Position numbers and translations under genes: made by a program. From the NCBI GenBank assembly GCA_028289015.1, contig JAQGHC010000031.1:19605-83604 (forward strand): 64,000 bases of DNA. Reading direction: 5' to 3'. Numbering within the stretch: the stretch's first letter is position 1; every line of letters starts with the position of its first letter. This stretch comes from Candidatus Saccharimonadota bacterium (GTDB taxonomy: Bacteria > Patescibacteriota > Saccharimonadia > Saccharimonadales > Saccharimonadaceae). The notes under the pieces are model-generated. The model ran no database searches, was not told the origin of the DNA, and saw only the letters and a list, made by a program, of their open reading frames with translations. Below, one piece after another: positions 11,371 to 51,703 of this stretch.

Positions 11371-11621
11371 TATTACAGCGCATTTGTGAATTAACTTACT
11401 ACGTATCGGCAGTAGTCGAATCCACGGAAAAGTCTGATACATAAATGAGCCTACCGACAAATGTCGCACGGATACCGAAACAACTTTTTATCTAATATCA
11501 ATTAATTCTAAGGTCGACAGTGTATCCCGTTCTATTTGCGAGAAGTAAGACAGAGTAAGGTAGACGCCTTTGCAGTAATGCAGACGGCAGGAGAACGATT
11601 ATTCGTAATCATCAATCCGCT

Positions 11622-50782: not shown

Positions 50783-51133
50783 TTACCAGCTACGCTGACG
50801 GAATGAACCGCCGCCGTTGCCACCACGGTCACCACCGCGGTCGCCGCCACCACCACCGTTGAAGTCGCGTTTAGGGCGATCTTCTTTAGGTCGTGCAAGA
50901 CCAACGCTGATAGTACGACCGTCAAGGTCCTTACCGTCAAGTTGATCAACAGCTTTTTGGTTGTCTTCGTCGTTTACGTATTCAACAAAGCCGAAGCCTT
51001 TTGAACGGCCGCTATCACGGTCAGTGATGACGCGTGCGCTTGAAACTTCGCCGATTTGTTCGAAATGTGCTTTTAATGTGTCGTCAGTAGTTGCGTATGC
51101 AAGGCTACCGATGAATAGATTTTGTTGTGCCAT
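50783..51133 (-). CDS. RRM-domain RNA-binding protein with Gly-rich tail
   Basis: NLFIGSLAYAT RNP2, SKGFGFVEYV RNP1, GGGGDRGGDRGG tail. Confidence 0.95.
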   Translation of the reverse strand: MAQQNLFIGSLAYATTDDTLKAHFEQIGEVSSARVITDRDSGRSKGFGFVEYVNDEDNQKAVDQLDGKDLDGRTISVGLARPKEDRPKRDFNGGGGGDRGGDRGGNGGGSFRQRSW

Positions 51134-51321
51134 AATGTAGGTACTCTTTTCTTCTTAACTGATTCTGATTATCGTCCGATCGACCGCTTCTGCGATGTGT
51201 GCCAAGAAGAGAGGTTACCTTAAGAGGTAAGCGCCCGCCTTTTGCCTTAATACGCGTGTGCTTCTGAACGTACCTATTTAATCATGTTTTTTATATTAAT
51301 ACTACCATTAGCGCAAAAAGC

Positions 51322-51350
51322 TTGCATCTATTTGAAAATTAAAGCATAAT
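51322..51350 (+). promoter_or_regulatory. putative promoter of candidate ncRNA
   Basis: TTGCAT (51322-51327) - 17 nt - CATAAT (51345-51350). Confidence 0.5.
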
Positions 51351-51356
51351 AAAGCA

Positions 51357-51480
51357 TAAGCTGGTACGCCAATGGGGTGCCATTGAGCGTTAAAACAAAA
51401 ATGTCAAAACAAACACTAGCGCCCTGGGTGGGCGCGTAACAGCTTAGAAGGCTCGTCTCTGTCAAAAGAGGCGAGTTTTT
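51357..51480 (+). ncRNA. candidate structured small RNA (three-way junction + terminator)
   Basis: TAAGCTG/CAGCTTA closing stem, two internal hairpins, CTCGTCTCT-gtcaaa-AGAGGCGAG-TTTTT terminator. Confidence 0.6.
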
Positions 51481-51498
51481 GCTAAAATAATCAAGCAC

Positions 51499-51575
51499 GG
51501 GGCATTGGCGCAGTTGGCTAGCGCGCTTCCATGGCATGGAAGAGGTCATCGGTTCGAATCCGATATGCTCCACCA
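51499..51575 (+). tRNA. tRNA-Ala(GGC), CCA encoded
   Basis: G3:U70 acceptor, anticodon GGC, T-loop TTCGAAT. Confidence 0.95.
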
Positions 51576-51703
51576 CGTAGATTTTATATAGTAACTACAA
51601 AATATATATGCCAAAATTAGAATCTTATGTCGAGCAGTTGAAAAATACTCGGAATTTGCTATACTAACTGTAGAGGAGCCCATCAATAAGTGGGCGTATT
51701 TTT

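Follow-up and report, generated by a model that had tools for sequence, protein, structure and literature searches.

Positions 51357-51480 (+) of the window, by which we mean the whole stretch of 64,000 nucleotides analysed here, are on comparative evidence occupied by a free-standing, single-copy non-coding RNA gene of ~124 nt, the expression of which is predicted. The unit consists of a structured RNA followed by a terminator and lies between an RRM gene and tRNA-Ala. Judging from its homologues it is almost certainly a real and new RNA family of one order (Saccharibacteria), and a structured RNA family is thus added for these tiny parasitic bacteria. While free-standing structured small RNAs are already known, this one falls outside every described family tested. 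No description of it was found in the open-access papers searched, supplements aside, nor did any study of small RNAs in Saccharibacteria turn up in the open-access literature searched.

Locus and transcription signals

The first-pass annotation had proposed that a structured RNA, as yet unannotated, starts here from a promoter of its own and ends at its own terminator. This proposal is strongly supported by homologues across the order with plentiful compensatory changes, and a sequence check found all of the elements it had named in place. The sigma-70-like promoter (51322..51350, +) is composed of a -35 box TTGCAT (51322-51327) and a -10 box CATAAT (51345-51350) separated by a spacer of 17 nt, a position and spacing found in most homologues; TTGACA occurs in the promoter of several distant ones. 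TTGCAT-17-CATAAT was not among the promoters listed by a consensus scan and would not stand out alone. It is convincing because 52 of the 82 homologues in our alignment A5 share its placement relative to the closing stem, their best-scoring -35/-10 pair having at least 8/12 matches and a -10 box which ends 4-7 nt upstream of that stem.

The intrinsic terminator (51452..51480, +) has an 8-bp stem, CTCGTCTC/GAGGCGAG (51452-51475), followed by U5 to 51480, and a simple script detected a downstream hairpin with a T-run in 64/82 homologues. That no coding sequence on the + strand accounts for this terminator was borne out, as it is used by no + strand ORF of at least 60 aa. Folding of 51350-51485 gave -54.9 kcal/mol against -34.8 +/- 3.7 in dinucleotide shuffles (z = -5.45; 0/200 shuffles as good). 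As regards a conserved short reading frame, alignment A5 when judged by eye shows gaps of any length and lacks a common start or stop.

The RRM gene (50783-51133, -) is divergent and lies ~220 nt upstream of the RNA, an arrangement which is usual in the family of the window. The RNA is often found downstream of ligA, and in the other families often without an RRM gene. Even within the window's family the RRM domain occurs unevenly and is absent from several genera. The genes downstream of the RNA vary (typA, a mur ligase-like gene, tRNAs, and others), which indicates that the RNA is not the leader of one gene; a cis-regulatory leader or riboswitch was ruled out by these variable downstream genes together with the RNA's own terminator.

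Distribution

A first nucleotide search of 41 related genomes returned clear relatives, each with the -10 box, the closing stem, and the 3' motif, and most with the terminator. A covariance model of the closing stem only (R1) matched 217 of the 295 genomes of the class, and a model built from all lineages (R3) matched 233/295, nearly all of them in one order. Among the genomes sampled from the window's family R3 misses only eight, and it also matches many other families of the order. Nearly every matching genome has a single match, genome G120 having two, and beyond the order one member of the class, G052, has a match (E = 1.3e-5). When a further model (R2) was run against 382 genomes of the phylum, matches were confined to the same order besides one partial weak hit outside the class, in G575 (24.5 bits), which covers model positions 18-71 only and was taken as chance. 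Since it was members of the order that went into the covariance models, diverged relatives elsewhere could be missed by these searches. Similar DNA was not found in phage and plasmid records. Even Saccharibacteria with small genomes (0.6-0.9 Mb) retain the RNA, which suggests a basic role; the assembly of the window comprises 846 kb in 37 contigs and is 93.55% complete. Assignment of the window to Saccharibacteria is based on its lysM-TM7 RNA together with the size and gene content of the genome.

Conserved core and competing folds

The best-supported fold over the 82 aligned homologues is a single long hairpin composed of two helices, P1 and P2, and from the pattern of sequence change we are highly confident that these form the conserved core of the RNA. 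P1 pairs AAGCUG-g-UACGC with GCGUA-a-CAGCUU; its 5' strand (51357..51369, +) reads UAAGCUG, a G mismatch, and UACGC, and its 3' strand (51434..51446, +) reads GCGUA, an A mismatch, and CAGCUUA. It corresponds to the closing stem of the first-pass annotation, extended past the G-A mismatch by UACGC/GCGUA. Two-sided changes are present at 7/9 modelled pairs of P1, and 98.1% of cells are paired across the 82 homologues. P2 is formed by GGGGUGC (51374..51380, +) and GCGCCCU (51419..51425, +), and has two-sided changes between lineages at all 7/7 pairs. The lineage types GGGGUGC/GCGCCCC, GGCUCUU/AAGAGCC, and GCGGCG/CGCCGC show that the helix is kept while its sequence is wholly replaced. The covariation of P1 and P2 together was 0.397 compared with 0.137 +/- 0.009 when partners were shuffled and no more than 0.081 when they were slid, kinship of the sequences being ignored in this comparison. 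As A5 was fitted to the P1-P2 structure it leans towards it. In an independent helix swap test, which scores the strongest helix that the two regions can form with each other, native pairs gave 16.6, pairs between lineage types 11.7, and shuffled sequence 9.8, again with kinship ignored.

This core differs from the three-way junction originally drawn for the RNA. The closing stem of the junction (TAAGCTG, 51357-51363, with CAGCTTA, 51440-51446) is present and covaries, but the junction as the structure did not stand. P2, which compensatory changes maintain in every lineage, had not been seen; it is mutually exclusive with the proposed 3' hairpin, the 5' strand of which lies within the 3' strand of P2, and with the inner part of the proposed 5' hairpin. 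When the stems were checked for compensatory changes, the closing stem had them, the 5' hairpin was supported in some lineages, and the 3' hairpin had none. The sequence of the latter (GCGCCC-tgggt-GGGCGC, 51419-51435) is there and is 93.5% paired in alignment A4, yet it shows zero two-sided change.

The 5' local hairpin (ACGC-CAATGG-ggtg-CCATTG-a-GCGU, 51366..51390, +), whose arms draw on the inner strand of P1 and on some of P2, holds up as an alternative fold for some lineages, not as an order-wide structure. The window's family and some others show it clearly; in several genera it has been replaced, and in the GCGGCG lineages it is weak or missing. Counting over fixed columns of A4 gave no significant signal. 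Because the arms of the hairpin shift, we turned to a free helix test, in which the native score was 11.99 compared with 10.19 +/- 0.24 for re-paired arms (maximum of 10.95 in 500). The 5' half of the RNA also folds better than its shuffles, with a mean z of -1.84 over the 82 homologues.

The minimum-energy fold of the isolated window RNA is the junction (-33.8), and the P2 fold of this RNA is 5.8 kcal/mol less stable. Over the 82 homologues, P2 is part of the minimum-energy fold in 36 and lies within 3 kcal/mol of it in 67, with a median gap of 0.45 kcal/mol. The keeping of two competing folds side by side suggests a bistable RNA, which on balance we consider probable. The 5' hairpin may instead be a folding by-product or intermediate rather than a switch state, or its outer part may to some extent form alongside P2, giving a pseudoknot, an arrangement beyond the scoring of nested folding.

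The core also carries conserved sequence elements. Element GGGUGGGCGCG (51426..51436, +) forms the 3' side of the internal loop and leads into P1. On this 3' side between the helices GGUGGGCGCG is retained in nearly all of the 82 homologues, part of it being unpaired in the P1-P2 fold. The motif GGGTGGGCGCG occurs once in the window, where 0.02 occurrences are expected, and once in 850 kb of the window's assembly. The end loop (51381..51418, +) is A-rich with repeated AAAACAAA boxes, here AAAACAAAAA (51392-51401) and AAAACAAACA (51406-51415). By motif counts AA[CT]AAA is found at least once per loop in 80/82 homologues and at least twice in 54/82, the corresponding figures for shuffled loops being 25.6 and 4.1. 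Such conservation of unpaired sequence may point to contacts in trans.

Comparison with known RNA classes

The search against Rfam that had been suggested as a check was run, and the RNA matches no Rfam family: at the locus nothing was found at E <= 0.1 save the neighbouring tRNA, and a relaxed threshold added only chance hits. Neither tmRNA (RF00023) nor RNase P RNA (RF00010) has a match there. For SRP RNA, both an RF00169 match and the domain IV motif were absent from the locus. The RNA is similar in length to the bacterial small SRP RNA and likewise carries AGCAGC on the 3' arm of a hairpin; unlike it, it has no GNRA-capped domain IV. SRP RNA was above cut-off in 0/41 related genomes and a search of the window's assembly gave no SRP54 M domain, the latter result being provisional as that assembly is 93.55% complete. 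These bacteria may be without the usual signal recognition particle. With bistable RNAs and riboswitches in general the RNA shares mutually exclusive helices of similar stability, but it differs from riboswitches in having no fixed downstream gene and no aptamer match.

For 6S RNA (RF00013) there was no hit at E <= 10 in 51250-51600 or anywhere in the window's assembly, and 0/39 genomes of the order had one above cut-off. The 6S hairpin is 160-200 nt long with a large central bubble; the core described here is ~90 nt and the 5' side of its internal loop ~0-7 nt. Similarity and motif searches over nearly all of the window's assembly detected neither rnpB nor rplT, probably because of an assembly gap. 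The complete genome G090, of which 800/845 kb were examined, has RNase P RNA and tmRNA genes, which are separate, true genes, and in that portion 6S was not found beside rnpB. In a genome from another family of the order (G026, L126:1501-1654, -) a full-length sub-threshold 6S match of 32.4 bits is located ~400 nt upstream of rnpB.

Discussion

Our preferred reading, to which we assign a probability of roughly 40%, is that the Saccharibacteria RNA is the RNA component of a ribonucleoprotein, works in trans, and uses its two folds as a switch. Its protein-binding surfaces would be the A boxes together with the conserved G-rich element, and the two folds would represent open and closed states: the local hairpins would form first, during transcription or on the partner's departure, and P1-P2 would form once the RNA is bound. 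The closest functional analogue may be 6S RNA, which as a small RNA binds to a core machine and controls it; the binding partner is putative. None was found, and the RRM protein was rejected as an obligatory partner given that many RNA-carrying genomes, including several of the window's family, have no match to it, the neighbouring RRM gene itself being absent. The wider picture, of an order-wide, probably housekeeping, two-state RNA of a ribonucleoprotein belonging to no described class, in bacteria seemingly without Hfq, SRP RNA, and mostly a recognisable 6S RNA, is put forward tentatively and as a whole is rather doubtful.

That the locus holds only a chance fold or terminator debris and no gene could be argued when a single sequence was known, as it was for the first-pass annotation; on comparative grounds, homologues with compensatory changes across the order refute it, and its probability is now negligible. 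An antisense regulatory small RNA, in which the G-rich element or the A-rich boxes are a seed for mRNAs that the two folds hide or expose, would also be free-standing with its own promoter, terminator, and conserved unpaired sequence. An Hfq-dependent small RNA was rejected as Hfq was above cut-off in 0/41 genomes, which counts against antisense action, though Hfq-independent sRNAs exist. An antisense seed usually lies in the least structured part of the RNA; here the conserved G-rich element extends into P1, and GGGUGGGCGCG has no notable complementarity to rRNA, tmRNA, or RNase P RNA. We regard this explanation as possible but unlikely.

A counterpart of 6S RNA, functional or even true, that binds RNA polymerase through an internal loop mimicking an open promoter seems to us improbable. 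Like 6S RNA, the molecule is free-standing and single-copy, and one of its folds is a long hairpin with an internal loop; also in favour are the lack of a 6S match above cut-off in the 39 genomes and that of a 6S beside rnpB in the portion of G090 examined. On the other hand, with ~90 nt plus a terminator it is half the size of 6S RNA, its internal loop is small and asymmetric, its end loop is large and A-rich, and RF00013 does not match it. The full-length but sub-threshold match in G026 indicates that a divergent 6S may exist separately, and since searches of the window's assembly did not recover the rplT-rnpB region, a 6S RNA encoded there could be missing from it. Very unlikely, finally, is that the RNA partners the upstream, divergently encoded RRM protein or serves as its sponge, the two A-rich boxes being putative RRM sites. 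The divergent gene pair recurs at many loci of the window's family, but an inherited order of the map may account for this adjacency, other families often have the RNA behind ligA with no RRM gene, and G005, G067, G088, G098, and G099 carry the RNA without any RRM match.

Saccharibacteria are genetically manipulable and have been profiled by Tn-seq (PMC10633639), which makes deletion, tagging, and probing of the RNA feasible, and what replaces the usual small-RNA machinery in these bacteria becomes a testable question.

The same window contains another structured RNA named for this phylum, the lysM-TM7 RNA (RF03005; 112 bits, 11449-11593, +), which is listed as cis-regulatory and is a separate locus, its model having no match at 51357-51480. 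In the complete genome G090 the 23S rRNA match (L204:10057-13369) spans 3313 nt compared with the 2925 positions of the model, and tRNAs lie between the 16S and 23S genes.
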